A DNA stretch of 35,053 bases from Rhodocyclales bacterium (GTDB lineage: Bacteria > Pseudomonadota > Gammaproteobacteria > Burkholderiales > Rhodocyclaceae): positions 1 through 35,053 of the forward strand of contig JACRIY010000094.1 in NCBI GenBank assembly GCA_016235805.1. The letters are read 5' to 3'. The notes beneath the pieces were generated by a model. It was not told the origin of the DNA. It did no database searches and saw nothing but the letters and a program-made list of their open reading frames with translations. Shown one piece after another: positions 13,328 through 32,090 of this stretch (position 1 is the stretch's first letter; every line of letters begins with the position of its first letter). Position numbers and translations under genes: made by a program.

Positions 13328-14184
13328 ACCCAACGACGATGGCGCCGAAGCCCGGCGCGATACCCGAACTGCTGGTGGACATCGCGTCAGCCTCGTCGCG
13401 TGTGTTCTGGCTCGTGCACAACGCGATGGCCGGAGGCCGCGCGCGCATCCAGTTGCCAGCGACGGTCTTCACCCGATTCAGCGAGGCCGTGGCGGCGCGA
13501 GGCGGCCTCGATGCCACGCCGCCGCTGGTGGAGCACCCGAGGGGCCTGTGCCGGCTGCATGACACCGTGATCGTCGATGGTGTTGGGCCCGGCCGCGTCA
13601 ACTGGATCCATCCAAGCGGTGACGTGCGGGTCGAGCTCGCGCGCCAACCGGGCGGCGCCGAGTACTACCCGATCGCCGCCATCCGGCGCGCGGTCGCAGC
13701 CAGGCCGCGGTTCGTCCACGAACTGGTGCCAGTGGGCCTGCGTGAGGCGAACCTCGTGGTCGAGCGCTTGCACCGGCGGCTCGGCAGGGTGCAGGGCCAC
13801 AAATTCGCCATCGGTCTGCGGCGCGTCGCGGACCAGGAACTGGACGGTGTCGCGATCGCCGCCCGACCGGTGGCGCGCCACCTGGACGACGGCCTCACGG
13901 CCGAGGTGCGCCGGGTGGCGGTCGATCCGGCCGTGGTCAACGGATGCACCAAGCTGCTGGGGGCCATCGCACGGTCCGCATCGGCGATGGGCTACCGGCG
14001 CCTGGTCACCTACACATCGGACGATGAGGACGGTGCAAGCCTCTACGCGGCGGGCTGGGATCCGATCGGACGCAGTGCCGGAGGGCACTGGGGATCGTCG
14101 AAGCGTCCGCGCGAACCCGGACCGGAGGAAGGGCGCAAGGTCGTGTGGGTCAAGGTGCTGCGTGGTGACCGTCGCGAGCGCTGA
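13324..14184 (+). CDS. XF1762-type protein, possible GNAT-like domain
   Basis: 286 residues from GTG 13324, coupled to the previous gene. An N-terminal region (1-125) of mixed structure precedes a domain whose sequence (KFAIGLRRVADQELDGVAIA, then LTAEVRRVAVDP, NGCTKLLGAIARSASAMGYR and GASLYAAGWDPIGRSAGGHW) matches the XF1762 family I know from phages and islands. The order (beta strand, RVAVD, helix starting near a conserved turn, YTS, GW/GG) is that of a GNAT acetyltransferase fold, though I cannot confirm an acetyl-CoA loop. It lies between two PP-loop enzymes, so it may act on the same substrate. Confidence 0.75.
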   Translation: MNPTTMAPKPGAIPELLVDIASASSRVFWLVHNAMAGGRARIQLPATVFTRFSEAVAARGGLDATPPLVEHPRGLCRLHDTVIVDGVGPGRVNWIHPSGDVRVELARQPGGAEYYPIAAIRRAVAARPRFVHELVPVGLREANLVVERLHRRLGRVQGHKFAIGLRRVADQELDGVAIAARPVARHLDDGLTAEVRRVAVDPAVVNGCTKLLGAIARSASAMGYRRLVTYTSDDEDGASLYAAGWDPIGRSAGGHWGSSKRPREPGPEEGRKVVWVKVLRGDRRER

Positions 14185-14253
14185 ACTGCTGTCGATGGCG
14201 CGGGGTTGAAGGTCCGATCCCGCGCGTGATCCTGGTGTTCACCGGGAGAGCGC

Positions 14254-15924
14254 ATGCAGCAGCTGATCGACCTTCGCAACGAGACGCCCGAGACCATCGC
14301 GCTTCAGGCGATCGGTGCGTTCATGGATGCCGGGCGGCCGGCGATCGTGCTCTTCAGCGGGGGCAAGGACTCCTCGGTGCTGCTCAACCTGGCGTTGACC
14401 GCTGCCATCGAGCAGGTGCGCGGCGGCCGCAGGCCCCTGGTCGTCATTGCCCACAGCGACGTGGGCGTCGAGAACCCCGAGATCCAGCGCCTGGTGGCCG
14501 GCGAGATCGCGAAGGCGAGCCGGTTCGCGCGCGAGCACGGGGTCACGGCGGTGGTCAGGGTCGCGAAGCCAGCGTTCTGGGACTCGTTCCCCGTGCGGGT
14601 GATCGGCGGCCGGGCGCTGCCCACGTTTCCGGACTCGCGGCGGGACTGCCAGACCGACCTGAAGCGGCTGCCGAACGAGCGCGAACTGGCCCTGATCGAG
14701 CGGGAGCTACTGGCCAAGGGCTGGCAGCAGCCGGTGCTCATGACCGGTGTGCGGCGCGACGAATCGGTCGTGCGTGGGGCCGCCGTGAAAGGCCGTGGGG
14801 AGAAGGCCGTCACGCTCTGGACGGACAAGGAGGACCGGCTACGCCTCAGCCCGCTGCTGGAGTGGGCAGTGGACGATGTCTGGCAGTACCTCGGCCTGGC
14901 CAACGCGGGTGTGATCCCGTCGTACAGCCGCTTCGACGAGACGATGCAGACTTACCAGGCCGCCGGCGGCAGCAGTTGCGTGGTGGTGGCCGATGCCGAA
15001 ATGCAGAAGCACTCGAAGCCCTGCTCGAGCCGGTTCGGCTGCTGGGTGTGCACCGCGGTCCGCGAGGACAAGTCGCTGCGGCAGATGATCGAGACGGACC
15101 GCGATCGCTATGGGTATCTGGCGCCGCTGGCGGCCTTGCGCGACTTCATCGCGTACACCCAGTACGACTGGTCGCGCCGGCAGTACGTCGGACGCAGCAT
15201 CGTCGAGGGCTTCATCGAGGTCGGCGCCGACACCTACTCGCCTTCGATGCTGGCCGACCTGCTGCGATACACCTTGAGTGCACAGAAGCTCTCAGGCGTT
15301 CCGGTCATCAGTGCCGCCCAGCTCATCGCGATCGATGCCCGCTGGTCCCAGTACGCCATCGCCGAGCCCTTCGCCGCGCTGCGCATCTGGAAGGAGGTCG
15401 AGGAGGGCGCGATCTGGACGCCACCTGCCATCCGTGCCCATCCCAAGACCGCCGTCCCCAAGCTGGGAAAGATCTTCGTGGGCGACTGGAACGACGACGT
15501 CACCTCCGCGCTGGAGGTCACCGGGCTGCGCAACCCGGCCTGGGAGGACTTCGCGGAGACCTGTGGACCAGGGCTGCGCACGCTGGCCAGCGGCCGGGCC
15601 GTGATCGACGTGGAAGGCGAGAGCGAGATCGACGAGGAAGGCGCCTGGCTGTTCCTCGACTTCGAGCTCGAACGCATGCTGCGTGAGCGGTCCATGACCT
15701 CGGGCTACTGGACCAGCGGCTACGAGACTTACCTGTCCTTCGGACTGGTGCAGCCGGCCCGGGGCCAGTCGGCCAGGGTCGACGAGATCCTGCGCCGGTC
15801 CCAATGGCGGCAGCGGCACGGACTGCACGGCGAGCCGCCGCTGGCCACCTTGCGGGATCGCCTGTCGGTGCGCTATCCGAGCCAGGGTGACCTCTTCGAA
15901 GAACTCCTGGAGTCCGATGCCTGA
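14254..15924 (+). CDS. DndC-like sulfurtransferase / PAPS-reductase family
   Basis: 556 residues, ATG 14254 with GGGAGAG upstream. The PP-loop is VLFSGGKDSSVLLNLAL (residues 32-48). Cys132 (RDCQTDLKRLP), Cys257, Cys263 and Cys266 (CSSRFGCWVC, followed by TAVREDKSL) match the cysteine arrangement of DndC, the iron-sulfur cysteine-dependent enzyme of DNA phosphorothioation. The HSDVGVENPEI stretch and SPLLEWAVDDVWQYL are also DndC-like. Length is close to DndC (about 500-550). No DndB, DndD, DndE or IscS-like DndA is in the window. It might serve an incomplete Dnd system, use a host cysteine desulfurase, or modify another substrate together with the PP-loop protein at 12116. Confidence 0.85.
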   Translation: MQQLIDLRNETPETIALQAIGAFMDAGRPAIVLFSGGKDSSVLLNLALTAAIEQVRGGRRPLVVIAHSDVGVENPEIQRLVAGEIAKASRFAREHGVTAVVRVAKPAFWDSFPVRVIGGRALPTFPDSRRDCQTDLKRLPNERELALIERELLAKGWQQPVLMTGVRRDESVVRGAAVKGRGEKAVTLWTDKEDRLRLSPLLEWAVDDVWQYLGLANAGVIPSYSRFDETMQTYQAAGGSSCVVVADAEMQKHSKPCSSRFGCWVCTAVREDKSLRQMIETDRDRYGYLAPLAALRDFIAYTQYDWSRRQYVGRSIVEGFIEVGADTYSPSMLADLLRYTLSAQKLSGVPVISAAQLIAIDARWSQYAIAEPFAALRIWKEVEEGAIWTPPAIRAHPKTAVPKLGKIFVGDWNDDVTSALEVTGLRNPAWEDFAETCGPGLRTLASGRAVIDVEGESEIDEEGAWLFLDFELERMLRERSMTSGYWTSGYETYLSFGLVQPARGQSARVDEILRRSQWRQRHGLHGEPPLATLRDRLSVRYPSQGDLFEELLESDA

Positions 15925-17425: not shown

Positions 17426-18136
17426 ATGGACGAACTCGACACCGGCACTGTCCTCGGTGCCATCACCGCGCTGCAGGGCCAGGGCTACTGCGTGCGCCGG
17501 ACCCCTGGCCCGCAGCAGCGTGAGCACAGCTTTGCGTTCGTGCTGCACACGCCGGGTATGCAGCGGGCCCTGGTTGGACCGGCGCGGTCGACGGTATTCG
17601 CAGCCTGGGCCAGCGCACAGGAGCACGCAGAACAGGCCGAAGGGACGCCGGCCACCTCCAAGCCGGCGCCGTTCTTCGCGGCGGAACTGCCCGCCGTTGC
17701 ACTCGACGTCTCGGTCATCGCGAGCCGCTTCGGCATCGACATCGCGACGGCCGAGCGCCAGGTGCAGCAGCTGCGGCAGCAGTCCATCTTCCTCAGCGCG
17801 ACGCATCAGGTGAACGTGCAGCTGATCAGGGTGCCCTTTGGGGAAGACCTTGGAGACGTTGCGTGGCTGTCCATCAAGCGCCGCGATCGCGAGGTGATCC
17901 GCGACTGGCGGGAACTGCAGGCGATCAAGAACGCCATCGTCGGGCCGGAGCACGAGGGCTTCGAGCTCTATCCCGCCGAATCCCGGTTGGTCGACACCGC
18001 GAACCAGTTCCATCTGTTCGTCTTCATGGACCGGCGTGTTCGCATGCCGGTCGGGTTCGTCGAGCGCGAGGTGGCCGGCACCGCGGAGGCGAGCGCGGTC
18101 GGTGCGACGCAGCGAGAGCTGCCTTCGAGAACGTGA
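17426..18136 (+). CDS. Hypothetical protein, DUF7694-like C-terminus
   Basis: 236 residues. An N-terminal region (1-75) containing VLGAITALQGQGYCVRRTPG is followed by a helical stretch with FGIDIATAERQVQQLRQQS. The C-terminal domain, about 125-210, reads VNVQLIRVPFGE, VAWLSIKRRDREVIRDWREL, QAIKNAIVGPEHEGFELYP and NQFHLFVF. This order is that of the small phage/island domain I recall as DUF7694, function unknown. It has a weak SD. It ends 210 bases before the RHH gene, so it probably belongs to the upstream unit. Confidence 0.65.
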   Translation: MDELDTGTVLGAITALQGQGYCVRRTPGPQQREHSFAFVLHTPGMQRALVGPARSTVFAAWASAQEHAEQAEGTPATSKPAPFFAAELPAVALDVSVIASRFGIDIATAERQVQQLRQQSIFLSATHQVNVQLIRVPFGEDLGDVAWLSIKRRDREVIRDWRELQAIKNAIVGPEHEGFELYPAESRLVDTANQFHLFVFMDRRVRMPVGFVEREVAGTAEASAVGATQRELPSRT

Positions 18137-18293: not shown

Positions 18294-18308
18294 ACTGCAG
18301 ACTGCAGT
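18294..18308. promoter_or_regulatory. Palindromic operator candidate upstream of RHH gene
   Basis: ACTGCAG-A-CTGCAGT is a perfect 15-bp palindrome 38 bases before the start of the RHH gene. Ribbon-helix-helix regulators bind such short palindromes as dimers, often repressing their own operon. The A-rich CAAAAAG just upstream and TACATT (18308-18313) just downstream suggest overlap with the promoter, though no -35 box at proper spacing was found. Confidence 0.55.
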
Positions 18309-18346
18309 ACATTTCAACGACTTAGCCAACGCAGCCCATCGCCAAC

Positions 18347-18535
18347 ATGAGACGCCCGAAGATCAAGACAGCGACGCTTACGGTACGGCTTGACCCAAAG
18401 ATCAAGGCCGCGGCCGAGGCGGCGGCAGAGAAGGATCACCGCAGCCTCACGAGCCTGTTGGAAGTATTGATCGTCAATCACTGCCGGGCGCTTGGGCTGG
18501 GCCTCGAACAATTTTCTAAGGAAGTCCACCAATGA
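18347..18535 (+). CDS. Ribbon-helix-helix (CopG-like) regulator
   Basis: 62 residues. The beginning is basic (RRPKIKTA), then TLTVRLDPKIKAAAEAAAEK gives the RHH beta strand and first helix, and RSLTSLLEVLIVNHCRALGL the second helix. This is the size and layout of an Arc/CopG family DNA-binding protein, typically an antitoxin or autorepressor. Its stop overlaps the NADAR start (ATGA), and a perfect palindrome lies just upstream. It therefore most likely controls the whole downstream block of defence-like genes. Confidence 0.8.
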   Translation: MRRPKIKTATLTVRLDPKIKAAAEAAAEKDHRSLTSLLEVLIVNHCRALGLGLEQFSKEVHQ

Positions 18536-19137
18536 CCAAGACGCCGACGACGGCGCGCAAGCGCGCAGTCACGCAAACCGCTGCCGTCAACGAGATTCGG
18601 TTTTATCGCGCCAATGAAGAGCCGTATGGCGCTTTCAGCAATCTGTACAAGCGTCCGGTGGAATTCGAGGGGACGAGCTACCCTACGTCGGAGCACGCCT
18701 ATCAGGCAGGCAAGGCGCTGAAGCCCGCGGTGCGCGAGTGGATCCTCAGCGCGCCGACGCCGGCCCTGGCCGCGATGGCCGCGCATGGTCTGTACGTGTG
18801 GGACGTGGTGCCCGATTGGGCGCAGATCAAGTTCACCCGGATGCGCGCCGTGCTGCGCGCGAAGTTCGATCAGCACGCCGACTTGCGCGAGCTGCTGCTG
18901 TCCACCGGCGAGGCCAGGCTCGTGGAGGCCGGAACCGTCAACAACGCCGTCAATCGCCTCTGGGGCGAGGTGGACGGCAAGGGCGAGAACATGCTGGGCG
19001 TGATGCTGATGGAGCTTCGAACGGCGTACGCCAAGCAGCGCTCCGCGGGCGCGCGTGCCGCCAAGAAGGCTTCCGCGTCCACGCAGACTTCGGCAAGCCC
19101 GAAGCTCGCCTCCAAGCGGGCAGGCGCGCCCGCATGA
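18532..19137 (+). CDS. NADAR family protein (YbiA-like)
   Basis: 201 residues, coupled to the RHH gene by ATGA. The NADAR fold motifs are clear: FYRANEEPYGAFSNLY (24-39), YPTSEHAYQAGKAL (50-63), WAQIKFTRMRAVLRAKF near 97-113 and LWGEVDGKGENMLGVMLMELR near 143-163. NADAR proteins act on ADP-ribose- or riboflavin-intermediate-type N-glycosides; some reverse ADP-ribosylation of guanine in DNA and serve as antitoxins. The N-terminal 20 and C-terminal 35 residues are basic and low-complexity (Ala, Ser, Lys), suggesting nucleic-acid contact. The partner here is not a DarT-like toxin but a phosphoribosyltransferase/ATPase set. Confidence 0.88.
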   Translation: MTKTPTTARKRAVTQTAAVNEIRFYRANEEPYGAFSNLYKRPVEFEGTSYPTSEHAYQAGKALKPAVREWILSAPTPALAAMAAHGLYVWDVVPDWAQIKFTRMRAVLRAKFDQHADLRELLLSTGEARLVEAGTVNNAVNRLWGEVDGKGENMLGVMLMELRTAYAKQRSAGARAAKKASASTQTSASPKLASKRAGAPA

Positions 19138-21122
19138 CCGCTGCTCCCAGCATGCCGTCAGCGGCCAATCACTACGAGGACGAGCTCGCGCAGTTGGGCA
19201 GCAGCTACTCGGCGGCGTGCGCCGCCGACATCGAGGCGTTGAAGCTCGCGATTGCCAGCACCGCCGAAGCCAGCATGATCGGCGTGGGCTCGGGAGGATC
19301 CTTCACCGTGGCCTCTTTGCTGTGCAGCCTGCACGAGGCCTACACTGGCCGGGTCTCTCGCTCCTCAACACCGCTGGAGATCATCTGCACCCCGGCCCTG
19401 GCCGCGTCGAGTCCGGTCTTTCTGGTGTCGGCCGAAGGCAAGAACCCCGACATCGTCGAGGCCCTCGAGCGGTCGCGACGCTTCAGCTCGCGCACGGTCC
19501 ACGTGCTGACCAACCGGCAAGACAGTCCTCTGATGGCGCACGTCCAGGCGCTGCCGGGCGTGAAGCCCTACGTGTTCGAGCTGGCGAAGAAGGACGGCTA
19601 CCTCGCGACCAACAGCCTGCTGCTCGACGCGGTGCTGGTGGCGCGCGCTTATGGCGAACTCAACGGCCGTCGTCAGCCGATGCCTGCGGATATCACGGCA
19701 TTGCAAGTCGGCGAGCAGAGCGTGCAAGAGTGGCTCGCGGCGGCACAGCCCTTCATCGCCGAGGCCGTGCGGCGTGGCGCGCTGACCGTCGTCTACTCGC
19801 CGTTGCTGCGGGCCATCGCCACCGACCTGGAATCCAAGCTCTCTGAAGGGGCGCTTCTGCACATCCAACTGGCCGATCTGCGTTCGTACGCCCACGGTCG
19901 GCACCTGTGGCTCGCGCAGCGCCCGCAGGACTGCGCCATTCTTGCGCTGGTCGAGCCATCGCTGGGCAAGCTGTGGGATGACATGAGAAGCAAGTTCCCC
20001 TGCGGCATTCCGACGCTGACGATGCCCTTGTCCGGCGCCGATCCGGTCCACCTGATCGCTGGCCTGGTCGCGCAGATGCACTTGGTGGCCGCGGTTGGCC
20101 GCGAGCTCGGCACCGACCCCGGCCGACCCGAAGTGCCGACCTACGGGCGGGAGATCCACTACGCGAACCTGCGAGACGTGATCCCGCTGCCGCTGCTGGC
20201 AGGGCCTGCGGAGGAACAGTCCAAGTACGAGGTGCTCGGTGCCCACTGGCCTTCGCAGCGAGACCACGGCACGATGCGCCGCGCGGCCCGGGCCTTCGCG
20301 GACACGCTGCGCGCGCAACGCTTCAAGGCCGTGGTGTTCGACTACGACGGCACGCTGTGCAGCTCGCAGAGCAAGGACGGCCCGCCGCCGTCCAGCGTGG
20401 TGGAGCATCTCGTCCGGCTGGCCCGCGCAGGCATCGTCGTCGGCATTGCTTCGGGTCGGGGCGGCTCGATCCAGACCTGCCTGCAAGAGGTCCTGCCGCC
20501 CGACGTCCTGCCCAGGATCAGGCTGGGCCTGTACAACGGCGGCTGGATCGCCGGGGCGGATGCTCCGCCGGCGCCGCCGGCGCAGACCAGTGAGTTCCTG
20601 AGCCACGTGACGCGCATCGTGGTGCGCCTGAAGGCCCTCGGCGTGCCCATCCTGGCCCACCGCATCACGCATCCCTACCAAGTCAGTGTCCGGTTCCGCG
20701 AGGGCCTAGCGACCGATGGCATGTGGTTCGTGATCGCCGACGCGCTGCGCCAGGCGGGCCTCGACCTCTCGACCATGGTTCGCAGCAAACACTCGGTCGA
20801 CATCCTCGCGAAGGGCGTGAGCAAGTCGGCGCTCGTGGCGGACATTATCCAAAAGGACAAGGTCGACCCCTACGAGATCCTGACGATGGGCGACCAGGGG
20901 GCTTGGCCAGGCAACGACGCCGCATTGCTGGAGCACCGGTACTCGCTGAGCGTGGACATGCCTTCGCGTCGACTGGACCGTGCCTGGAAGCTCGCGCCCG
21001 CCGAGAAGCGCGACGTCGATGCCACGCTGTGGTACCTGGAGCGGATGGTGATCGAGGACGGCGGCGTGTTTCGGCTGGACCTGCCGGATGCGCGCGACAA
21101 CGGGGAGGCCGACGGTGCGTGA
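19134..21122 (+). CDS. SIS domain-HAD phosphatase fusion
   Basis: 662 residues from ATG 19134 (ATGA with NADAR; the longer frame to 18738 lies inside NADAR). The N-terminal half (about 20-345) is SIS-like: MIGVGSGGSFTVASLL at 48-63 matches the sugar-phosphate-binding Ser/Gly loop, and a second half has VVYSPLLRAIATDLESKLSE. The C-terminal half (about 395-640) is a HAD hydrolase: motif I VVFDYDGTLC (nucleophile Asp near 403), motif II IASGRG, Lys in DILAKGVSKSAL, and motif IV MGDQGAWPGNDAALL (about 585-599), with a Cof-type cap between. It would bind or isomerise a phospho-sugar and remove a phosphate. This fusion is unusual; its place beside a phosphoribosyltransferase suggests action on a ribose-phosphate compound. 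Confidence 0.85.
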   Translation: MTAAPSMPSAANHYEDELAQLGSSYSAACAADIEALKLAIASTAEASMIGVGSGGSFTVASLLCSLHEAYTGRVSRSSTPLEIICTPALAASSPVFLVSAEGKNPDIVEALERSRRFSSRTVHVLTNRQDSPLMAHVQALPGVKPYVFELAKKDGYLATNSLLLDAVLVARAYGELNGRRQPMPADITALQVGEQSVQEWLAAAQPFIAEAVRRGALTVVYSPLLRAIATDLESKLSEGALLHIQLADLRSYAHGRHLWLAQRPQDCAILALVEPSLGKLWDDMRSKFPCGIPTLTMPLSGADPVHLIAGLVAQMHLVAAVGRELGTDPGRPEVPTYGREIHYANLRDVIPLPLLAGPAEEQSKYEVLGAHWPSQRDHGTMRRAARAFADTLRAQRFKAVVFDYDGTLCSSQSKDGPPPSSVVEHLVRLARAGIVVGIASGRGGSIQTCLQEVLPPDVLPRIRLGLYNGGWIAGADAPPAPPAQTSEFLSHVTRIVVRLKALGVPILAHRITHPYQVSVRFREGLATDGMWFVIADALRQAGLDLSTMVRSKHSVDILAKGVSKSALVADIIQKDKVDPYEILTMGDQGAWPGNDAALLEHRYSLSVDMPSRRLDRAWKLAPAEKRDVDATLWYLERMVIEDGGVFRLDLPDARDNGEADGA

Positions 21123-22221
21123 CCAGAACGCCGCCAAGTTGCTGGCCAAGGTGATGGGATGGGAGGACCTGGAGACCGTGCCCCAGGTGCTGCCGACCCT
21201 GCAACTGCTGGCCGACTTCAAGTACGACCACTACCAACGCTTCGGCCCGGGGCGCCGCTTCATCGAGAGCCTGGCGCTGTGGCTCCACCAGTTCGAGCCT
21301 CCGGATCGGCAGGCCGCCTTGGGGTTGGTCCTGGATCGCCTGGTGTTCATCTCCGACGCCGAGTTCTCGCATCTGGTGCGCACCGCCTACCGCGACTGGA
21401 TCGTGCAGGAACGCATGCGACTGGTCTCCGAGGAACACGAGATCCCTTCGTTCAGGGTTCGGGAGATCGCTCGCCACCGGCGCTTCGAGCAACTGCGGCT
21501 GACGTCCTTGTACCTCGGCCTGAGCGATGGCGCGCGCACCAACGAACTGCGGCGGGCCAGCGACGGCGAGATCGGCAACGAGCAGATCTGGCAGGCCTAC
21601 GAACTGGGCGACGAGAAGGCCGAGGACATGCTCGAGGACCTCGGAGCATCGCTGCACGGCGCCGGCTTCGCATCGGAGGACCCGCGCTTCAACCTGATCT
21701 GGCTGCTCGACGACTTCTCCGGCAGCGGCAACACCTACATCCGCTATGACGGCGCCTCGCGCCGATTCAAGGGCAAGCTGCCCAAGATCTACCAGCGGCT
21801 TCACCAGCGCGGCATGGTCGACCCGTCGCACTACGAAGTGTTCCTGATGCTCTACACCGCGACGCGTCAGGCGATCGACCACATCGAGTACTGGTCGGAG
21901 CGGTTCACGACGGACCACGGCTTCAAGCCCTTGCAGGTGCGCGTGCTGTGCCCGATCGAGCCCGAGGTCTCGCTGACTCGCAACGCCAGTCCCGAACTGC
22001 AGGCCCTGCTGGCCAACCCGGCCTACAGCAACAAAGGCGTGGTCGACAAGCACTTCCTCGTCGGTGGGACCGACGATGCAAGCCTCGGCTTTGCCGGATG
22101 CGCGTTGCCGGTGGTGTTGGGCCACAACACGCCGAACAACTCGGTGTTCCTGTTGTGGGGGCCGGAGCAGTTCAAGCCGCACGGACTGTTTCCCCGCGTC
22201 AGCCGTCATCGGGAGTTCTGA
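21115..22221 (+). CDS. Phosphoribosyltransferase-like protein
   Basis: 368 residues from GTG 21115, with GGGGAGG 7 bases upstream, overlapping the SIS-HAD gene by 8 bases. The key motif is FNLIWLLDDFSGSGNTYIRY at about 192-211. Two acidic residues followed by a GSGxT loop form the PRPP-binding signature of type I phosphoribosyltransferases (usually VVDDxxxTGxT). The rest does not match a salvage enzyme; the N-terminal 170 residues are helical. A KGVVDKHFLVGGTDDASLGF segment and VVLGHNTPNNSVFLLWG occur near the end. I recall that conflict-system surveys describe such a PRTase paired with an ORC/CDC6-like ATPase, which is the next gene. Confidence 0.75.
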   Translation: MRDQNAAKLLAKVMGWEDLETVPQVLPTLQLLADFKYDHYQRFGPGRRFIESLALWLHQFEPPDRQAALGLVLDRLVFISDAEFSHLVRTAYRDWIVQERMRLVSEEHEIPSFRVREIARHRRFEQLRLTSLYLGLSDGARTNELRRASDGEIGNEQIWQAYELGDEKAEDMLEDLGASLHGAGFASEDPRFNLIWLLDDFSGSGNTYIRYDGASRRFKGKLPKIYQRLHQRGMVDPSHYEVFLMLYTATRQAIDHIEYWSERFTTDHGFKPLQVRVLCPIEPEVSLTRNASPELQALLANPAYSNKGVVDKHFLVGGTDDASLGFAGCALPVVLGHNTPNNSVFLLWGPEQFKPHGLFPRVSRHREF

Positions 22222-24134
22222 TGGCCTACAACGCCAACCCCTTTCTGGAGCGCATGTCGGAGCGCACGACCTCGGACATGGAGTTCGTCCGACTGTTCTC
22301 GCCGAAGATCCTGGAGAAACTGGCCGAGGACGCCTTCGATGGTGCCGTGCATGTGTTTCGCAGCGCGCCGGGCGCCGGCAAGACGACGCTGCTGCGCGCG
22401 TTCACGCCGCCGGCGCTGCGCGCCTTCTGGCATTCCCGCAACCGCCCCGAGCTGTCCGAGTCGTTCCAGAAGCTGCTCAGCCGCGGGTTGCTGACCGAGG
22501 GCGAGAGCCCGCAACTGCTGGGCGTCTATCTCAGCTGTGCGTCCGGGTATGCCGATCTGCCTTCCAGCGAGGGCTTGCAGCAGGAGGGGCTCTTCCGGGC
22601 GCTGCTGGACTGCCGGATCGTTCTGCGCACGTTGCGCAGTCTGGGCTCGCTGCTCGGCTTCAGCACTCCCGAGCAGTTGGCCGAGGTGTTGCTCGACCAT
22701 TCCGCCCTGCCTGGCCTGCAGGGCATCCCGACGATCACGAACGCGTTGGAGCTGGCGACCTGGGCCGAGGAACATGAGCAACGGGTCTACGCGCAGCTCG
22801 ACACGTTCATGGGGCCCGTCAACGCGGCGCTGCCCGCCCAGTTTCGTTTCGAGGGCGTGTTGTGGCTGCAGTCGATCGCCTTCACCCACGAGGGACGGAG
22901 CGTCGGCGGCAAGCGTCTCCTGATGGTCGACGACATGCACAAGCTGCGCCGCAAGCAGCGGGCACTTCTCGTCGACGAGTTGACGGTTTTGCGCTCCTCC
23001 ATTCCGATCTGGCTGGCCGAGCGTACCGTCGCGCTGGGAACCGAGTTGCTGTCGCAGGGCGCCCGCGAAGGCCGCGACCTGCGCGAATACAACCTCGACC
23101 GCATGTGGAGTGATGCCAAGGGGATGAACCAGTTCGTCTCCTACGCGCAGAACATCCTCGATCGGCGCATGAAGAATCAGGATGCCGTGCCGGTGGGGTC
23201 GTTCACCCAATGCCTGCGCGACGAACTGGTCAGCAGCGAGGTGCGCACCCAGGTTGCCCAGGGCATCGAGCGCTTCCGCAGCGAGGTCGAGCGACACCAG
23301 TCCAAACAGCGCTATGCCCAGTGGCTGGCGCGGGCGGACCAGTACACGTCCGACCAGAACCTGGAGTCGCTGCTGGAGCTCTATGTCACCCGCATCCTGC
23401 TCGTACGGGACGAGTCGAAGCGCCAGTTGTCCCTGGACCTGACCCTGACCGAGGAAGAGCTCGAGGACCGCGACAGCTCCCAGGTCCGCAATGCCGCGGA
23501 GCTCTTCATGCACGAGGAATTGGGCATCCCGTACTACTTCGGGTTCGAGCGCTTGTGCGTGATGGCCACGAGCAACGTCGAGGAACTGCTGGGGCTCGCG
23601 GCTGCGCTCTACGTCGGCCTGCAGGCCAAGCAGGTGCTGCGCAAATCCGAACCCATCCTGTCGCCGCTGGAACAGGACAAGCTGTTGCGCGAGGCCGCCG
23701 CTCGCAAGCGCGACTTCATTCCCAAGTCGCACACCGAAGGTACCCGGGCCCAGTGCCTGCTGGATTCCATCGGTGCGTTTTGCTACGACCAGACGTTTGC
23801 GCCGAATGCGCCCTACGCGCCCGGGGTGACGGGGGTGCGGCTGTCGCGTGCCGAGTTGGCCAAACTGACCTCGCCCGGTGCGTTCGGCCCGCCGGGGCTG
23901 GTCCTGCAACGCGTGCTGGCCGAGTGCGCCGCGGAAAACCTGCTGGTGCAGCGGGAGAGCCAAGCCACCGGGTCGCGCGACAGCGGGACCGTCTTCTACC
24001 TCAACCGATCGCTGTGCGCCCTCTACGGCCTGCCGCTGCAGATGGGGGGATGGCGGGACGTGACCGTGGGCGAGCTGATGAGATGGATGGAGCGCCGCCT
24101 CACGCCCAGCCGCAAGAGCCTGGAGACGAGCTGA
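22221..24134 (+). CDS. AAA+ ATPase, ORC/CDC6-like
   Basis: 637 residues; ATG 22221 shares one base with the preceding stop (TGATG). Walker A is VFRSAPGAGKTTLLRAF (about 43-59), Walker B KRLLMVDDMHKLRRKQ (about 231-246), with a possible sensor region LRSSIPIWLAERTVALG after it. The C-terminal half (about 380-637) is helical and likely winged-helix, as in ORC/CDC6- and STAND-type ATPases. No nuclease, TIR or other effector domain is visible, so it would be a sensor or a switch that activates its partners. The tight coupling to the PRTase on one side and the 24136 gene on the other suggests a complex. Confidence 0.75.
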   Translation: MAYNANPFLERMSERTTSDMEFVRLFSPKILEKLAEDAFDGAVHVFRSAPGAGKTTLLRAFTPPALRAFWHSRNRPELSESFQKLLSRGLLTEGESPQLLGVYLSCASGYADLPSSEGLQQEGLFRALLDCRIVLRTLRSLGSLLGFSTPEQLAEVLLDHSALPGLQGIPTITNALELATWAEEHEQRVYAQLDTFMGPVNAALPAQFRFEGVLWLQSIAFTHEGRSVGGKRLLMVDDMHKLRRKQRALLVDELTVLRSSIPIWLAERTVALGTELLSQGAREGRDLREYNLDRMWSDAKGMNQFVSYAQNILDRRMKNQDAVPVGSFTQCLRDELVSSEVRTQVAQGIERFRSEVERHQSKQRYAQWLARADQYTSDQNLESLLELYVTRILLVRDESKRQLSLDLTLTEEELEDRDSSQVRNAAELFMHEELGIPYYFGFERLCVMATSNVEELLGLAAALYVGLQAKQVLRKSEPILSPLEQDKLLREAAARKRDFIPKSHTEGTRAQCLLDSIGAFCYDQTFAPNAPYAPGVTGVRLSRAELAKLTSPGAFGPPGLVLQRVLAECAAENLLVQRESQATGSRDSGTVFYLNRSLCALYGLPLQMGGWRDVTVGELMRWMERRLTPSRKSLETS

Positions 24135-24135
24135 C

Positions 24136-25308
24136 ATGCTGTGGGATCACTATGTGTTTCGCCGCGGCGACGGCGTCCATGAACTGTGGGACGACTTGCT
24201 GAAGGCCCGGCCGGTCCAACTGCTGTACATCGCCGGCCGCGGCTTCGACGTGCGTGCGCAGTCGGTGATGCGCGAGTTCGTGGCGGGACAGCAGGGCACC
24301 GGAAGGCAGACCGTGAGCGCCAAGCTGCTGCTGCTGAGCTTCCACGGCTACGAGCTGGACGATGACATCGAGGCGCTCACGCAGGAGAACGCCGCGGCGC
24401 TGGAGGCGGTGTTCGCGCCGTTGGGCGAAACGATCACCGTAACCGTCACGCGGCCCGAGGGCGAGGAAGAGGCTAGTGCCAGCGATGCGCTGCGCCAACG
24501 GGTCAAGGCCGTCCTCGACGAGATCGTTGGCAAGACGGACATCATCCTGGACGTCAGTTCGCTGCCGCGCGCGACCTACCTCGCGCTGCTCACGAACATC
24601 CTGCACAGGCTCGTGCCAGACAAGGTCCCGGCGGAGGGCGCCGAACATCCGCTGTATGCCAGCGGCGTCAACTTCCAGGTGCTGGTCGCCGAGGATGCCA
24701 AGCTGGACGGGCAGATCCGGGCCGAAGACCCGAGCAACGACCTCGTGAACATCCCGGGGTTCTTCGCGACCTGGCAGCTCGAAAGCGTGCAGGACTGGCC
24801 CCTGGTGTGGTTTCCGGTGCTCGGCGAAGGGCGGGTGAATCAGCTGCAGAAGATCGGAGGTTCGATTCCGGCGGAGGCCGAGGTCTGCCCGGTGGTGCCG
24901 CATCCGTCGAAGGACCCACGCCGTGCCGACCGGCTGCTGGTCGAGTACCGGGAGCCGCTGTTTGACAGCCGCAAGACGCCGACGTCGAACATTCTGTATG
25001 CCCAGGAGTCCCAGCCGTTCGAAGCTTACCGGCAGATCCTGGGGGCGATGAAGCGATACCAGAACAGCATGACGATTCTGGGCGGATGCCGGCTGGTGAT
25101 GACGCCGCTGGGCAGCAAGCTCATCACCCTGGGCACCGGCCTCGCCTGTTTCGAGATGCGGCCAACGGACTGGAACGCCAAATACGGCGTCGCGATCCCG
25201 CACGCGGAGCCGAGGCGCTATGTCGCGTCGGTCGATGCCCTGCGCCAGTCCAGTCCGGAAGTTTCCGTGCTGCTGCTGACGGGCGAAGCGTATGGAGCAC
25301 CGAAGTGA
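24136..25308 (+). CDS. Unrecognised protein, last gene of the NADAR/PRTase block
   Basis: 390 residues; ATG begins one base after the ATPase stop. Two Rossmann-like strand-turn elements are visible: VQLLYIAGRGFDVRAQSVM at 27-45 and TDIILDVSSLPRATYLALLT near 133-152. The D-V-S-S-x-P-R turn after a hydrophobic strand resembles ligand-sensing sites of CARF-like or phosphorylated-nucleotide-binding Rossmannoid domains, but this is inference. An acidic linker (RPEGEEEASASD) lies near 110-121. The C-terminal half contains ILYAQESQPFEAYRQILGAM and SKLITLGTGLACFEM. It could sense or make the nucleotide signal of the system. Confidence 0.6.
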   Translation: MLWDHYVFRRGDGVHELWDDLLKARPVQLLYIAGRGFDVRAQSVMREFVAGQQGTGRQTVSAKLLLLSFHGYELDDDIEALTQENAAALEAVFAPLGETITVTVTRPEGEEEASASDALRQRVKAVLDEIVGKTDIILDVSSLPRATYLALLTNILHRLVPDKVPAEGAEHPLYASGVNFQVLVAEDAKLDGQIRAEDPSNDLVNIPGFFATWQLESVQDWPLVWFPVLGEGRVNQLQKIGGSIPAEAEVCPVVPHPSKDPRRADRLLVEYREPLFDSRKTPTSNILYAQESQPFEAYRQILGAMKRYQNSMTILGGCRLVMTPLGSKLITLGTGLACFEMRPTDWNAKYGVAIPHAEPRRYVASVDALRQSSPEVSVLLLTGEAYGAPK

Positions 25309-25385: not shown

Positions 25386-26549
25386 ATGCCGATCACCGCG
25401 TTTTCGAAGCAACAGGGACGGGAGCTTGATGTCGAGCAATGGCTGCGCCTGCATGGGTATGCGGCACAGGGCGACGCTGAACTCGTCGGCGTTCCCAACG
25501 CGTTGAGGGCCTTGGCCTCCGCCGATATCGAGTGCAGCTGCTGTGGCGCAGCAGGCGCCGTTCTGGTGGGGCGTGGTCGCGGACGGGCGACGGGCAGGGC
25601 GGTCACACAGAACCACTTCCGGTTCCGAGGCCCCGATGGCAGCAATCCGCATGATCCGCTGTGCGACTACTTCGACGAGAAGAAGGTCTCCGGTAGCGAG
25701 TACCTGACCAACTTCTCGACAGACCGATCGGCACTGACCCGGGCGATCCGCGAGCTGGTTTGTCGAGCCATCCAAGGCGGTCTCCTCAGCCAGCGCGACA
25801 TGCGTCGCATGCGGCAGTGGTTCCTGGACGTCAAGAGCCAGCACGCGTTCACGATGGACGTGTCGGCCGACTTGCTGCAATGGTGCGTCGATCTGTGGTC
25901 GGCCAAGGCCTATCGGCCTGTTGGCCAGTTCCCCTTCCGTCCGGAACACGGTGCCTTGCCGGGCTTCGACTGGCAGGCCGCGGCGGAGCAGGAATGGGCA
26001 CGCCGCAACGCCGACTTGTTCGACCTGTGCGGGCGGCAGCGCGTCCACTTCCATCGTCGATGGATCGAACGGCCGCTCAAGATCGCCGCGCAGCGCGCGG
26101 GCGAGACGCTGTTCGATCCAACACCGCTCCAGACACAGTACGAAGCCGCCACGACGCTGGCACGTTTTGCCGCAGACTATGTCTTCGACGCCGGGCCCGG
26201 CGCGGCGCCGATCGCGCTGCAAAGGCATGCTTCGGAGTGGGGTCCGACAGGTCACGCCCTGCTCGCGTTCAGCGCTCTGTTGCTGTTCCTCCGCGATTGG
26301 GATCTGGAGGCCGGTGTGGCGCTGTTCGTGCACGTGCGCACGCTGCCTCCGGCCGAGGATGATCTGGCGGGCAATCTGATCGGTCTCAACCCCTTCCACG
26401 ACTTCGAGGCCTGGCAAGTCATCAGAGTCGCGCGTCTGATTGGTGCGCAACGTACGGATCGGCGGCCGGCGCAGGAACAGGTGGCTGATGTGCTGAAAGA
26501 CCTGCGCGTCCAGCATGCACACTGGGAGGCCGCGCGGTCGGCAGCCTAG
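25386..26549 (+). CDS. Unrecognised protein with CoiA-like Cys/His motif
   Basis: 387 residues. Near the N-terminus is C50, C52, C53 (IECSCCGAAGAVLVG), HFRF at 77-80, then H89 and C93 (NPHDPLCDYF), similar in order to the C..C ... HF.H ... C zinc-finger region of CoiA-like proteins. It differs enough that I would not name it. The remainder is helical with SADLLQWCVDLWSAKAY and several Trp. A 77-base gap separates it from the coupled block, so it may be cotranscribed but is not translationally coupled. The next gene is convergent. Function unknown. Confidence 0.6.
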   Translation: MPITAFSKQQGRELDVEQWLRLHGYAAQGDAELVGVPNALRALASADIECSCCGAAGAVLVGRGRGRATGRAVTQNHFRFRGPDGSNPHDPLCDYFDEKKVSGSEYLTNFSTDRSALTRAIRELVCRAIQGGLLSQRDMRRMRQWFLDVKSQHAFTMDVSADLLQWCVDLWSAKAYRPVGQFPFRPEHGALPGFDWQAAAEQEWARRNADLFDLCGRQRVHFHRRWIERPLKIAAQRAGETLFDPTPLQTQYEAATTLARFAADYVFDAGPGAAPIALQRHASEWGPTGHALLAFSALLLFLRDWDLEAGVALFVHVRTLPPAEDDLAGNLIGLNPFHDFEAWQVIRVARLIGAQRTDRRPAQEQVADVLKDLRVQHAHWEAARSAA

Positions 26550-26717: not shown

Positions 26718-29315
26718 TCAGGGAATTGCAACGAGGTGGTCACGCGCGGGTCGTGCCGCCAGCCAAGCGGCCAGGCCCGGCGCATCCGCGCGGCACTCGC
26801 TGAGCGCCTGGGCCGCCTGGGCCCGCCATGCCAGATCCCCCGGCTCCTGAAAGTCCCGGCGCAAGTCCCGGATGACCACCAGCGCTTCCTCGGCCCAGCG
26901 TCGGAAGTCCCCCAGATCCCAGTGGGCGACCTTCCCCAGATGCGGCATGGCGCCTTCCTTGGCCCTCTTGGCCGGCGTCACAAGCACGGGCTGGATGTCC
27001 GCGCCGACCGACGCGGGGACGTGCTCGCGCAGCCAGTCCGGATGGGATCCTGCCTGACGTGCTTTGGTCGCGTCGATGACCGATGTCTCGCCCTTGGCGT
27101 TGGCATGATCCTCGAAGACCAACGCGATGTTGCCGACGATCCACCAGGGATCGGGCGATGCATCGTCCTCGCGCTTGCCGGCGATGAAGCCCAGGTGCTC
27201 GCCCAACAGGACCTGTGCCTGTTCGAAGGTCTTGGCGTCGCTCAGGCCCTCACGGATCGCGTTCTCTCGCGCCGAGAAGTCCCTGTTGTGCAGCGTGCCC
27301 AGCTTCACCAGGTGCCCTTCGAGCTGCTCGACTTGCAGCAGCAGCGTGCCATGCCCGATCTCCTCGGGCGTCGGGGCGGCGGCCGCGCCGCCGCGCGCGA
27401 GTCCGATGAGCCAGGGAATGCCAGCGGCGGCGTCCTTGGCCTTGCGGTACTGGGTGCGCGCATGCGCGTCGAACCCGACCTCTCCCGACGTGGCTGCTGC
27501 TTCGGCGGCGGTGCCGGCCAGGTAGTGCCACAGCGCGCGATAGCCGCGCAAGGCAGGGTCGCTCAGGCCGCCCAAGACATCCCGGGCCGCGTCGTAGGCC
27601 CTGGAGTAGTCCTCGTTCCACATCGCCGTCTGCCACGCGATTTCGTGGGCCACGACGCCCTCGAGCTGGTCCATGGCCGGAAACTTTGCCTGCGTGGCGG
27701 CTTCCCGCGCATCCAGGATGCCTTGGTTCGCGTCCTCCCAGGCCTCATCGTGGTCCAGAAAGATGCTGAAGTTGTCCAGCAGGTCCTTGCGCTGAACCTT
27801 GGTGGACTGATCGACGCCGAACTCCAGCTCCGCCTGCAGTTCGGGGTGGAAGAAGGCGCGGCGCTTGCGATCCGTCAGGTAGGCCGGCAACTCGTCGCCG
27901 GTGATCACGACCGCGGAGTAGTCGTTCAGGCCGCGTGTGCAGCGTCCGATCGCCTGGAGCACGCGCGTCTGGATGCGCTCGTTGAAGAGCAGGCTCGCAC
28001 CCATGCGGTTGATCAGGAACCGCTCCTGCAGATTCGTGGTCCGGGACAGGCCCTCGACAAACAGCAGCCGGCAGTCGTCGTCCGGGAAGTCGATCCCGTC
28101 GTAGCGGTTGGCGATCACCGCCACGGCCTGGTCGGACTGGACGAACTCGGCCTTGCTGACTTCCAGATCGGTCGCGGTGAACACCGGGAACTTCAATTGT
28201 TCCGTCACATCCTCGATCACCGTCGCGGCATCGGGCTTGCTGGGCGTCAGCACCAGGCTGCGGCCGGCCTTGCGCATCAGGTCCCGGCGCAGCTGCAGCG
28301 TCTCCTCTTCGGTGAGCGACTTCTCGGGGAACAGGAAGAAGCGCCGCCCGATGCCCTGGCGGTCCCATCCTTCGGGGATCGGTAGGCGCTTGATCCGCGG
28401 CCGCCCCGTCAGGCGCTCCAGGTCGCCACCGGCCCCCAGGGTGGCGGACATGAAGATCCGCTGCTTGGCCCCGACGAACGGGCCGTGCGACCAGGTCGGC
28501 GGAATCAGCGGGCGCAACATGATCTCGCTGGAGGACACGTACAGCTGGCAGGCATGCAGGTGGCTGGCCAGCATGCGCCACGGATAGCGGTGGTCCGTGT
28601 CGCCGACGTTGGCGCTGATCGTCGCCCGCAACTCGGCCGCGATATCGTTCAACTGGTGGCTCGGGATCTTGTCGACCCAGCCCACATCGTCGACGCCTTG
28701 CCAGTCACCGGTCAGGCGGGTGTAGTTGTGGGCGGGCAGCACGGCCTTCAGCACCCCCGCCATGGCCTTGAACAGCGCGTCGTCCGCCTCTTCAAAGCGA
28801 CTGACACGCAGCGTCCACTGGCTCGCCATGTAGTTCTCGGCCGCGTGGGCATCGTCGACGATGATGATGTCCGGGCTGTCGAAGAACGGGTTCGTATTGA
28901 AGAGGCTGTTGTACGTGGTCACGGCCACGCGTTCGCTGTCCTGGTAGGCGGTTTTGGCCTCGGGTGTGTAGTGCCTGATCTTGCCGGTGAAGGGCTCGAT
29001 GGTCAGGCCGTACTTCGCCGACGCCTCCTCGGCGACCTGATGGACGAGTTGTCGCGTCGGGCACAGGTAGACGATGCGCTCACGGAACTTGCGCCGCCGC
29101 CACTCGGCGAGCAGCAGGCCCACCAGCGTCTTGCCGCTGCCGGTAGGCAACTGCAGCGCCACGTCCGGCGCGTCCAACGCCTGCCCGACGTAATTGCGCA
29201 GCACCTGGCCCTGGTGATCGAACAGGCTGGCGTGCTTGCGCCGAGGCAGGTCGCGGAACAGGCGGTCCGGGCTTTCCGGGACGGCGGCATGCGTTGTCGG
29301 CTTCTTGAAGACCAT
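26718..29315 (-). CDS. Large DEAD/DEAH-type superfamily 2 helicase
   Basis: 865 residues from ATG 29315; the frame is open much further upstream but overlaps a better gene there. The ATG has no clear SD. Helicase motifs: ALQLPTGSGKTLVGLLLAEW (53-72, motif I), VYLCPTRQLVHQVAEEA (82-98, Ia), DIIIVDDAHAAENY (149-162, motif II with DDAH in place of DEAH), IFMSATLG (287-294, motif III), VLQAIGRCTRG (452-462, motif VI). Motif II and the lack of an RNA-helicase C-domain match XPD/Rad3- and defence-type helicases. The C-terminal 350 residues are an uncharacterised helical region. It converges on the gene ending at 26549. Confidence 0.85.
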   Translation of the reverse strand: MVFKKPTTHAAVPESPDRLFRDLPRRKHASLFDHQGQVLRNYVGQALDAPDVALQLPTGSGKTLVGLLLAEWRRRKFRERIVYLCPTRQLVHQVAEEASAKYGLTIEPFTGKIRHYTPEAKTAYQDSERVAVTTYNSLFNTNPFFDSPDIIIVDDAHAAENYMASQWTLRVSRFEEADDALFKAMAGVLKAVLPAHNYTRLTGDWQGVDDVGWVDKIPSHQLNDIAAELRATISANVGDTDHRYPWRMLASHLHACQLYVSSSEIMLRPLIPPTWSHGPFVGAKQRIFMSATLGAGGDLERLTGRPRIKRLPIPEGWDRQGIGRRFFLFPEKSLTEEETLQLRRDLMRKAGRSLVLTPSKPDAATVIEDVTEQLKFPVFTATDLEVSKAEFVQSDQAVAVIANRYDGIDFPDDDCRLLFVEGLSRTTNLQERFLINRMGASLLFNERIQTRVLQAIGRCTRGLNDYSAVVITGDELPAYLTDRKRRAFFHPELQAELEFGVDQSTKVQRKDLLDNFSIFLDHDEAWEDANQGILDAREAATQAKFPAMDQLEGVVAHEIAWQTAMWNEDYSRAYDAARDVLGGLSDPALRGYRALWHYLAGTAAEAAATSGEVGFDAHARTQYRKAKDAAAGIPWLIGLARGGAAAAPTPEEIGHGTLLLQVEQLEGHLVKLGTLHNRDFSARENAIREGLSDAKTFEQAQVLLGEHLGFIAGKREDDASPDPWWIVGNIALVFEDHANAKGETSVIDATKARQAGSHPDWLREHVPASVGADIQPVLVTPAKRAKEGAMPHLGKVAHWDLGDFRRWAEEALVVIRDLRRDFQEPGDLAWRAQAAQALSECRADAPGLAAWLAARPARDHLVAIP

Positions 29316-29479
29316 GGAGGAGACTGAATGCAGTAGTTGTCGATGGCGTGACGCGGGAGGCGCGACCACGGCATGTTCGTTCTGGCATCCCATCACGGGC
29401 TGCGCGCCGCTCCATTCTGGGGCTATCCGGCAGCGCGGCTGCCGACCCTGTGCGCCAGGAAGCGCAGCGGTCGACCAGC

Positions 29480-30235
29480 TTAGGCGTGCCGGGCGGGATC
29501 CTGGGCGGTGGGAGCAGACGCCCGATGCCGTGAGATGCCGCAGTTCAGGCAGGTTGCCACCACGCCGAGCAGCCATTCGAGACGTTCGGCTCGCGGGCGC
29601 AGGTGCAGGTCGAAGCTGCCGTCCGCTTGCGTCTCGTGGAAGTCGTCCAGGCTCCTGGGCGACGCGTGAGCCCCGGCGATCCCCAGCCCGCGATACACAG
29701 TCGCGTACTCGAACTTGAGGTCTGCAGCGCAGGCGGCTTCCCAATGCGACCACCCGCTCGCTGCGGGGTGCTCCGCCGCAATGGCCTTCAGCTCGGGGAG
29801 CCGCGCCGATGGCACGCGCGTGTCCGCGCCTTCTGTCAGCATCTGCCGCGCCTGTTTGACCCGTTCCTCGTGGTGCCAAGCTTCCATCTTGTCCGCGACC
29901 TCTGGCTTGCACCAAAGTGCGCAGGCGGCGAAGAGGCACTCGAACGCGGTTCGCAGCGTGGCAAGAGACGCTGTAGCCAGTCCGCGCTCTGCCAGCAGCA
30001 CGGTGCCCTGACATGACTCGATGCACCGCAGCCAGAAGGCTGCACCCACCAGATAGGCCGGCGCCGCCATGCCACTGACCGACTGGAGTTCCGCGATGGC
30101 CGTGCCGATGGTCCGCTCGAGGGCCTCGAATTCGGCGGCGAGCCGCGCTCGTTCGCTGCGGCGAAAGTCGTCGATCTCGGACGAGAAGAAGCCGACGGTT
30201 TCAAACGGTGCGCTCACGGCTTGGGCATGCGGCAT
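29480..30235 (-). CDS. DUF5677-like protein
   Basis: 251 residues from ATG 30235. The hydrophobic helical part PAYLVGAAFWLRCIESCQGT and LATASLATLRTAFECLFAAC (residues about 58-105) resembles the DUF5677 family, helical proteins with a possible HEPN-like relationship. An acidic and charged middle (EAWHHEERVKQARQML) follows. It is on the same strand as and upstream of the helicase, separated by 164 bases, so a link is possible. No catalytic motif was identified. Confidence 0.65.
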   Translation of the reverse strand: MPHAQAVSAPFETVGFFSSEIDDFRRSERARLAAEFEALERTIGTAIAELQSVSGMAAPAYLVGAAFWLRCIESCQGTVLLAERGLATASLATLRTAFECLFAACALWCKPEVADKMEAWHHEERVKQARQMLTEGADTRVPSARLPELKAIAAEHPAASGWSHWEAACAADLKFEYATVYRGLGIAGAHASPRSLDDFHETQADGSFDLHLRPRAERLEWLLGVVATCLNCGISRHRASAPTAQDPARHA

Positions 30236-30326
30236 GGAGGTCTGGCGGTGTCAGACGCGTTGCACAGCGGCGAGGCCCCCTCGCCACGGGGTTCTGACCG
30301 GGGCGCAGGGCGCGGCGCCAGCCGCG

Positions 30327-30758
30327 TCAGCCCGCCTTGAGCTTCATGCCGGCGACCTTGCCCGAACGCAGCAGGTCGCGGACGACGCCGGCGGAGGCCT
30401 CGACGGTGGCGACGCCGATGTTGGCGGCCGTGGACACGATGCGGAACTGGCCGTTCGACGCAGCGTTCCGCACCTCCGCGGCGACTTCCTCGCTGAACGT
30501 CCGCTCCCGCGCGCTGCCCGGGCGATTGGTCACGCTGTACCTGCTGAAGCGAGAGCGCCTGGCATCCAGCTTGACCAGGACGGTCAACGGCATCGAATCT
30601 GCCTGCTGGATCGCACGGCGCACGGCAGGATCGATTTGCTTGCCCTGGCTGGTTGCGGCCGGCACGGGCGTGTGCTTGCGCGCGGGCGCACCCGACGCCC
30701 TGGACGGGGCAGCACCAGATTTGGCAGCGGCAATAGCAGATTTCGGCACGGTTGTCAC
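30327..30758 (-). CDS. Small protein, I9/propeptide-like, coupled to subtilase
   Basis: 143 residues from GTG 30758, whose first base is the last base of the subtilase stop (TAGTG). A disordered basic N-terminus (residues 1-60) precedes a beta-alpha-beta-beta-alpha-beta order: SMPLTVLVKLDA, FSEEVAAEVRNAAS, FRIVSTAANIGVATVEAS, AGVVRDLLRSGKVAGMKLK. That is the arrangement of the peptidase inhibitor I9 (subtilisin propeptide) fold. As a separate protein it could act as a chaperone or inhibitor of the neighbouring protease. The longer frame upstream lies within the protease gene and is a shadow. Confidence 0.6.
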   Translation of the reverse strand: MTTVPKSAIAAAKSGAAPSRASGAPARKHTPVPAATSQGKQIDPAVRRAIQQADSMPLTVLVKLDARRSRFSRYSVTNRPGSARERTFSEEVAAEVRNAASNGQFRIVSTAANIGVATVEASAGVVRDLLRSGKVAGMKLKAG

Positions 30759-32086: not shown

Positions 32087-32090
32087 CACG

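Follow-up and report, generated by a model that had tools for sequence, protein, structure and literature searches.

The known ligands of CARF and SAVED proteins are products of Cas10 or of CD-NTases, and known relatives of NADAR proteins cut ADP-ribosylated guanine or phosphoribosylamino-pyrimidines at the N-glycosidic bond. According to excerpts of the respective papers, NADAR acts as an antitoxin to DarT1 and YarT and reverses guanine ADP-ribosylation (PMC11125620), retron type III-A has a phosphoribosyltransferase (PRTase) effector, the PRTase/winged-helix pair being its effector set (PMC12548924), and the ORC/CDC6-type ATPases of the Ssp system are predicted to form a ring and scan DNA (PMC10853773). 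Here we analyse a stretch of 35,053 nt from a Rhodocyclales bacterium (GCA_016235805.1, contig JACRIY010000094.1; hereafter the window), in which one operon of six genes encodes an RHH protein, a NADAR protein, a fusion of a phosphosugar-binding SIS half with a HAD-IIB phosphatase half (SIS-HAD), a PRTase-CE protein, an ORC/CDC6-like AAA+ ATPase (ORC) and a predicted tandem CARF protein. The reading that we put forward tentatively, and would not yet call probable, is that this conserved operon is a defence switch, in which the PRTase would be the harmful effector, NADAR and SIS-HAD would undo its product, and ORC together with CARF would form the trigger.

From our searches, 1073 relatives of SIS-HAD and 922 of protein 6 were found at E <0.001 among the candidates scored, and a scan of genome contigs yielded 37 loci, some of them near-duplicates (L004/L005, L009/L010, L033/L036). 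SIS-HAD, PRTase, ORC and CARF genes, the four-gene core, occurred together in 32 of these loci, 30 of them with the same order on a single strand; L033 and L036 have the core split into two divergent blocks with PRTase-ORC-CARF reversed, and in L018, near a contig end, the CARF frame is short. Four of the five loci without the full core lie at a contig edge, and the fifth, L027, is a decayed copy in which ORC and CARF are absent. The core was likewise present in 17 of 18 plasmid matches, the exception (L125) covering 40% of the query. The preliminary description of this DNA, made from its sequence, had called for such a neighbourhood search and would have dropped the idea of a system had homologues turned up only as unrelated single genes, and a linked core was found instead. 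NADAR was present in 34 of the 37 genome loci and absent from L028, the contig of which begins within a split SIS-HAD frame, and from L035 and L037, which carry a PfkB kinase in its place. Among the 17 core-bearing plasmid loci, PfkB was found in 16 and NADAR in eight (one from the record's annotation), and every core-bearing locus, genomic or plasmid-borne, had NADAR and/or PfkB. The 18 plasmid records were typed as conjugative (9), mobilizable (1) and non-mobilizable (8), chromosome-sized contigs of up to 5.4-5.5 Mb also carry relatives, and the operon occurs in bacteria of several phyla. None of 50,697 phage records had the system; a single locus among viral contigs (L129, IMG/VR, 73 kb), which may belong to a phage or to another mobile element, has all six genes. 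Broken copies of the genes were seen in L124. In Sinorhizobium meliloti plasmid pRRI128_5 (L043, 3857-16034), two PRTase-ORC-CARF triplets lie around a single set of SIS-HAD, PfkB and NADAR, the second PRTase having a shorter annotation with its C-terminal part unaligned; this arrangement fits a shared antidote and also a shared maker of a messenger.

The genes of the window operon, all on the plus strand, are separated by -4, -4, -8, -1 and +1 nt and are translationally coupled (Table 1). Their coordinates and couplings, the palindrome in front of them and the domain names, all given in the preliminary description, were upheld, the names by profile matches (PF08719, HAD-IIB, PF24390 and PF24389). 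The PRTase matched PF24390 (55.9 bits, cut-off 27), is homologous to the PADLOC PRTase_III-A models of retron type III-A, and has an intact motif for binding phosphoribosyl pyrophosphate (PRPP), DDF-x-G/A-S/T-G, with the second Asp and the Gly each in 58/58 alignment rows. ORC matched PF24389 (81.9 bits, cut-off 27), with the Walker A Lys in 57/58 and the Walker B Asp in 58/58 rows. The HAD half, fused to the upstream SIS-like half, matched HAD-SF-IIB at 43.2 bits (cut-off 41.8), and its Asp, Asp and Lys are invariant in 59/59 rows (near-duplicates are included in these three alignments); in the SIS half, the motifs GxGGS and SAxGxNxD are nearly invariant. The NADAR protein matched PF08719 (91.3 bits, cut-off 35.1) and the N-glycosidase model TIGR02464 (85 bits, cut-off 73.7), and its nearest solved structure by sequence is E. 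coli YbiA (2b3w). E54, E132 and W144 are invariant in 40/40 rows, the window's own protein being entered twice, and alignment with YbiA points to E132 as the putative catalytic Glu. The catalytic motifs of PRTase, HAD, ORC and NADAR are intact across divergent relatives. The PRTase model gave no Foldseek match under E 0.001, and VIA-align, a second look at Foldseek matches, was used instead.

Table 1. Coordinates of the operon and its putative operator in the window.
Feature	Position	Strand	Remarks
15-nt palindrome ACTGCAGACTGCAGT	18294..18308	.	most likely the core of a conserved operator, 5' of the RHH gene
RHH protein	18347..18535	+	likely autoregulator of the operon; relatives in 18/37 genome loci
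NADAR (YbiA-type) N-glycosidase	18532..19137	+	predicted antidote; PF08719, TIGR02464
SIS (phosphosugar-binding)-HAD-IIB phosphatase fusion	19134..21122	+	predicted antidote; HAD-SF-IIB
PRTase-CE phosphoribosyltransferase	21115..22221	+	GTG start; predicted effector; PF24390
ORC/CDC6-like AAA+ ATPase	22221..24134	+	PF24389; Walker A and B conserved
Predicted tandem CARF protein (CARF6)	24136..25308	+	predicted stand-alone sensor without an effector domain; PADLOC CARF6

We then compared the region 5' of the operon across loci. The half-site GC[AG]GTACA was present in 16 of 19 RHH-bearing loci (the window and near-duplicates included), in 0 of 17 RHH-less loci, and in 101 of 13,200 random 170-nt stretches drawn from the same loci. 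Because the half-site recurs with the RHH gene, is missing from RHH-less loci and is rare in the background, the palindrome is most likely a conserved operator to which the RHH protein would bind. In relatives the operator often takes the form GCACTGC-N5-GCAGTACA, and the form GCACTGC-N5-GCAGTACATTT is found in several RHH-bearing loci. Matches of the RHH gene product to RHH families of Pfam and NCBIfam were all sub-threshold. The palindrome was also considered as a hairpin, and since its folding was no better than that of shuffled sequence (z -0.19), it was treated as an operator; Rfam and tRNA scans of the window gave no matches.

In the mechanism that we propose, the RHH protein would repress the operon at this conserved site. 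Upon invasion, the ORC/CDC6-like ATPase would assemble on foreign DNA and the CARF protein would bind a nucleotide-like ligand; the PRTase, once released, might draw on PRPP to link 5-phosphoribose N-glycosidically with a base, a nucleotide or an amine, by which growth or the invader would be stopped. NADAR would cleave off the product of leaky PRTase activity, the SIS half, or elsewhere SIS with PfkB, may process the phosphosugar or a rearranged adduct, and the HAD half would take off the phosphate. FrlB-type SIS proteins and FrlD-type PfkB kinases strip sugar-amine adducts, and the riboflavin-intermediate N-glycosidase behind TIGR02464 reportedly frees ribose 5-phosphate from phosphoribosylamino compounds, as Frelin and colleagues are said to have found in 2015. 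Bonds of this kind are what a PRTase forms and what NADAR cuts. Matches to the NagB-II (SIS half), ribose-1-phosphate kinase and fructoselysine 6-kinase models were weak and far below cut-off, and solved SIS proteins appeared at chance level only (E 0.6). The SIS/PfkB step is the least certain one because the matches to FrlB/FrlD-type models are weak.

Protein 6, which the preliminary description had left as a Rossmann-like protein of unknown family, is matched over its full length by PADLOC CARF6 (E 3.2e-126), has no Pfam match, and is better described as a predicted tandem CARF protein. Its predicted structure (pLDDT 89.2, pTM 0.91) has two CARF-like halves in one chain, and the first 24 rows of VIA-align were all CARF, SAVED or ring-nuclease proteins, with 6sce as the top structural match. 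Foldseek placed KaiC first by E-value, but with a TM-score under 0.2, and when the CARF and PRTase alignments were run as profiles against solved structures, they gave chance-level rows only (e.g., Cullin-2, E 0.014). In each half of the CARF fold, ligand is bound by residues that follow strands one and four. Those that follow strand one are conserved in this family, and strand four is followed in both halves by a conserved positive residue, K328 in 55/56 rows (one Arg) and R145 in 44/56, the latter differing in part of the PfkB-type loci.

To find a possible source of the CARF ligand, we searched the genomes with a SIS-HAD locus for the Cas10 and SMODS cyclase families. The Cas10 palm model passes its cut-off in an E. 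coli control as well, and only matches under 1e-13 were counted as strong: these occurred in 4 of 36 genomes, SMODS matches over cut-off occurred in 5 of 37, and the two sets do not overlap, so that 28 of 37 genomes have neither. In the loosest count, which takes all matches over the curated cut-off, Cas10 rises to 14/36, and with SMODS and the window genome 17 of 37 are covered, leaving 20 with neither; we take the weak Cas10-palm matches to be GGDEF proteins. The window genome (80% complete) has no SMODS match and only weak Cas10-palm matches (best 1.1e-5, 27.5 bits, just over the cut-off). Several of the genomes are drafts and two cyclase families were covered, and the absence of cyclases is accordingly approximate. 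Because most host genomes are without strong cyclase matches, the CARF ligand is probably not, in general, a Cas10 or SMODS product. An effector of type III CRISPR or of a cyclic-oligonucleotide-based antiphage signalling system (CBASS) would be expected to have its cyclase in the same genome, which the counts above do not show for most hosts; nor is there a linked cyclase gene at the operon. These observations bear on a different reading, in which CARF senses a messenger derived from ribose phosphate, PRTase, SIS-HAD and NADAR are responsible for its synthesis and breakdown, and ORC or CARF is the output. Several of the matched CARF/SAVED structures contain cyclic oligoadenylates or cyclic dinucleotides, judging by their titles, the ligand could be home-made in the 28 genomes, and the synthesis of a nucleotide-derived signal by PRTase and HAD has been proposed for Ter systems (PMC7824862, excerpt). 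NADAR is, however, absent from some loci (L035, L037, L040, L042), and we consider the reading rather unlikely, with the composition of the wider ORC-CARF6 family as a further reason.

To delineate that family, we sampled ORC-CDC6-like proteins in 398 genomes of the phylum to which the window belongs (14 genomes over the cut-off), 369 of its class (7), 297 of the L035 phylum (6) and 301 of the L034 phylum (2); the first and second of these samples overlap partly, each includes its centre genome, and the first was taken at a looser E-value limit. Fifteen ORC loci without SIS-HAD were taken in, omitting the weaker genomes G331, G223, G055 and G362, and G123, the locus of which (L116) repeats that of G274. 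A CARF6 protein was found in 10 of the 15, by CARF tests that covered all but L113 and L114; in L081, L104 and L105 a single neighbour was tested and gave no CARF match. The gene beside ORC was nameable in seven of the 15, as PRTase-CE (L075, L108), HD-CE (L076, L078, L103, L110) or a metallophosphatase (L077). Since this gene varies among nucleotide and phosphoester enzymes while ORC and CARF6 stay, it is most simply the effector, and more likely so than the maker of one CARF ligand; ORC-CARF6 loci with HD-CE or a metallophosphatase in place of the PRTase could not make the same messenger. Between enzymes that undo the effector's product and enzymes that make a signal, we lean towards the former. 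A further sub-type of this family is seen in L111 and L112, whose long ORC-like proteins (829 and 875 residues) have an amino-methyltransferase on one side and, on the other, a CARF6 protein with a second match, to the PADLOC CARF-kinase-AAA model.

Eleven of the 15 ORC loci without SIS-HAD carry a DNA methyltransferase (seven by Pfam, four by similarity), including eight of the 10 bearing CARF6. With one motif scan applied to both sets, a methyltransferase-like open reading frame (ORF) was near ORC in 9/15 of these loci vs 2/49 SIS-HAD loci (both from one genome); the scan misses L108 and L109, which Pfam names, and recovers 9 of the 11. By similarity, just two methyltransferase ORFs turned up in the SIS-HAD loci, at the outer margins of L004 and L005 and >7 kb away from the operon. 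In this respect the SIS-HAD loci depart from restriction-modification-like ORC-CARF6 systems, in which a methyltransferase is expected beside ORC. When 56 ORC proteins were placed in a tree, a branch with SH-aLRT 100 set all 46 SIS-HAD rows apart, and among these the 31 NADAR-type rows grouped together. The second variable feature, either a methyltransferase or NADAR/SIS-HAD/PfkB, is most simply self-protection. The defence switch can be given a more specific form, possible though doubtful to us: the PRTase would mark a nucleic-acid base or a nucleotide with 5-phosphoribose when the ORC ring and tandem CARF are triggered, a NADAR/SIS/HAD(/PfkB) eraser would replace the methyltransferase in self-protection, and the ligand would be unlike a cyclic oligoadenylate. 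The same exchange admits a reading in which host DNA carries a sugar mark, with SIS-HAD and NADAR/PfkB as its suppliers or editors in the position that the methyltransferase has in related ORC-CARF6 loci, while ORC and CARF act on unmarked DNA. The PRTase alone among the window's three enzymes is a glycosyl-type transferase, the short PRTase-CE loci keep their methyltransferase, which implies that the PRTase does not replace it, and such self-marking appears improbable to us.

Several points weigh against the operon as a defence switch. The two short PRTase-CE loci just mentioned (L075, L108) have no NADAR or SIS-HAD in the stretch covered, and hence the PRTase need not have such an antidote. 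In eight of the 15 ORC loci without SIS-HAD no known effector family could be named beside ORC. As the SIS-HAD loci form one clade, the methyltransferase contrast amounts to few independent events, and because of long branches, for which the tree carries a warning, the order of its deep groups is unsure. No close characterised relative of the SIS half was found. In the flanks of other loci there are integrases, resolvases and transposases with no common neighbour, and the 25 most frequent of 97 Pfam families include no recurrent defence family, in a scan with no control flanks that took in 100 of the 191 ORFs found beside the loci left once seven near-duplicate or short ones were dropped. No publication showing defence, toxicity or a phosphoribosylated target was found in the literature searched. 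A metabolic origin is also conceivable, as one SIS-HAD relative, on Rhizobium ruizarguesonis plasmid pRlX3 (L125, 7194-8888), sits in a sugar ABC-transporter locus without PRTase, ORC and CARF; it is possibly a metabolic relative that hints at the substrate. An ordinary metabolic or glycation-repair operon for ribose-phosphate salvage, with no role in defence, has in its favour this relative, the nature of SIS, HAD-IIB and PfkB as phosphosugar enzymes, and the sub-threshold sugar-enzyme matches described above. CARF6 and the ORC-like ATPase, however, accompany the enzymes in 32/37 genome loci and 17/18 plasmid matches, half of the plasmid records are conjugative and the PRTase is related to retron effectors, all of which make a purely metabolic operon very unlikely.

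The preliminary description is supported in part: in placing a PRTase and an ORC-like ATPase at the centre of a coherent module, in its ribose-phosphate or nucleotide chemistry, and in its conflict-system character, with which the presence of the set on plasmids and the CARF6, HD-CE and DNA methyltransferases of its relatives agree. Its unknown sixth protein apart, a consistent defence-island setting did not emerge from the scanned flanking ORFs, which gave mobile-element families and no convincing link to defence. If the defence switch is real, phosphoribosylation would join the short list of bacterial immunity chemistries, PRTase effectors, also present in retrons, would gain a testable substrate class, and a CARF receptor working without a known cyclase would offer a route to a new messenger. 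The family would also be an evolutionary experiment, the same ORC-CARF core being paired with DNA methylation in some bacteria and with an enzymatic eraser in others.

The window itself resembles a mobile island. Genes for protein E of a PRTRC system and for a ThiF-family protein (600-4837) suggest a plasmid-like or integrated mobile element; two PAPS-reductase-like genes (12116-15924), one of them strongly DndC-like (PADLOC E 1e-36), lie about 2.4 kb upstream of the operator, a UvrD-like helicase is also present, and downstream of the operon, on the minus strand (26718-33038), a PDC-S28-type helicase, a subtilase and a DNA/RNA non-specific endonuclease stand in a row. Two genes considered as further members, 25386-26549 (gene 7, 77 bases off) and 17426-18136, have no relatives in the other 43 loci compared and were rejected. 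Elsewhere, TniB, TniQ or Mu-type transposase genes adjoin the operon on rhizobial plasmids (L040, L126, L128), SIS-HAD on a Sphingomonas parapaucimobilis plasmid is closely preceded by a gene resembling nucleoside 2-deoxyribosyltransferases and by a weak match to an Mrr-type endonuclease (L041, 6212-7620), and a multiubiquitin/ThiF gene set (L120, 1498-3540) and a caspase-family gene (L123, 11832-13286) adjoin SIS-HAD operons.

Among known systems, the type III CRISPR CARF sensor-effectors (6sce) and CBASS SAVED proteins share with the window protein the two CARF-like halves of its predicted structure, and differ in that the window chain has no nuclease or other effector domain and no linked cyclase gene. 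Retron type III-A, described with a PRTase/winged-helix effector pair in the excerpt of PMC12548924, has a PRTase homologous to that of the window, where ORC, CARF, NADAR and SIS-HAD stand instead of a reverse transcriptase, none being matched by Pfam in the six genes or in two genes next to them. In the DarT1-NADAR and YarT-YbiA pairs (PMC11125620, excerpt), NADAR adjoins an enzyme that makes N-glycosidic ribosyl bonds, as would be expected of the window's PRTase; the partner there is an ADP-ribosyltransferase, whereas the window has a PRPP-motif PRTase plus SIS-HAD, ORC and CARF, and Pfam matched no ART domain in the same eight genes. The Ter-type modules likewise place a PRTase and a HAD phosphatase beside ligand-binding proteins (PMC7824862, excerpt), whereas the window has ORC, CARF and NADAR, and its six genes match no Ter family in Pfam. 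A combination of NADAR with SIS-HAD, PRTase, ORC and CARF was not found described in the literature searched; the 2020 CARF classification and Burroughs-Aravind 2020, outside that search, may describe part of it. The loci of ORC-CDC6-like (PF24389) and CARF6 proteins with PRTase-CE (PF24390), HD-CE (PF24391) or a metallophosphatase share with the window the succession of ORC then CARF6 (10 loci) and, where nameable (seven loci), an effector-like gene beside ORC; they differ in having no SIS-HAD, NADAR or PfkB by profile in the stretches covered, and a methyltransferase in most. The component families PF24389, PF24390 and CARF6 were catalogued earlier.

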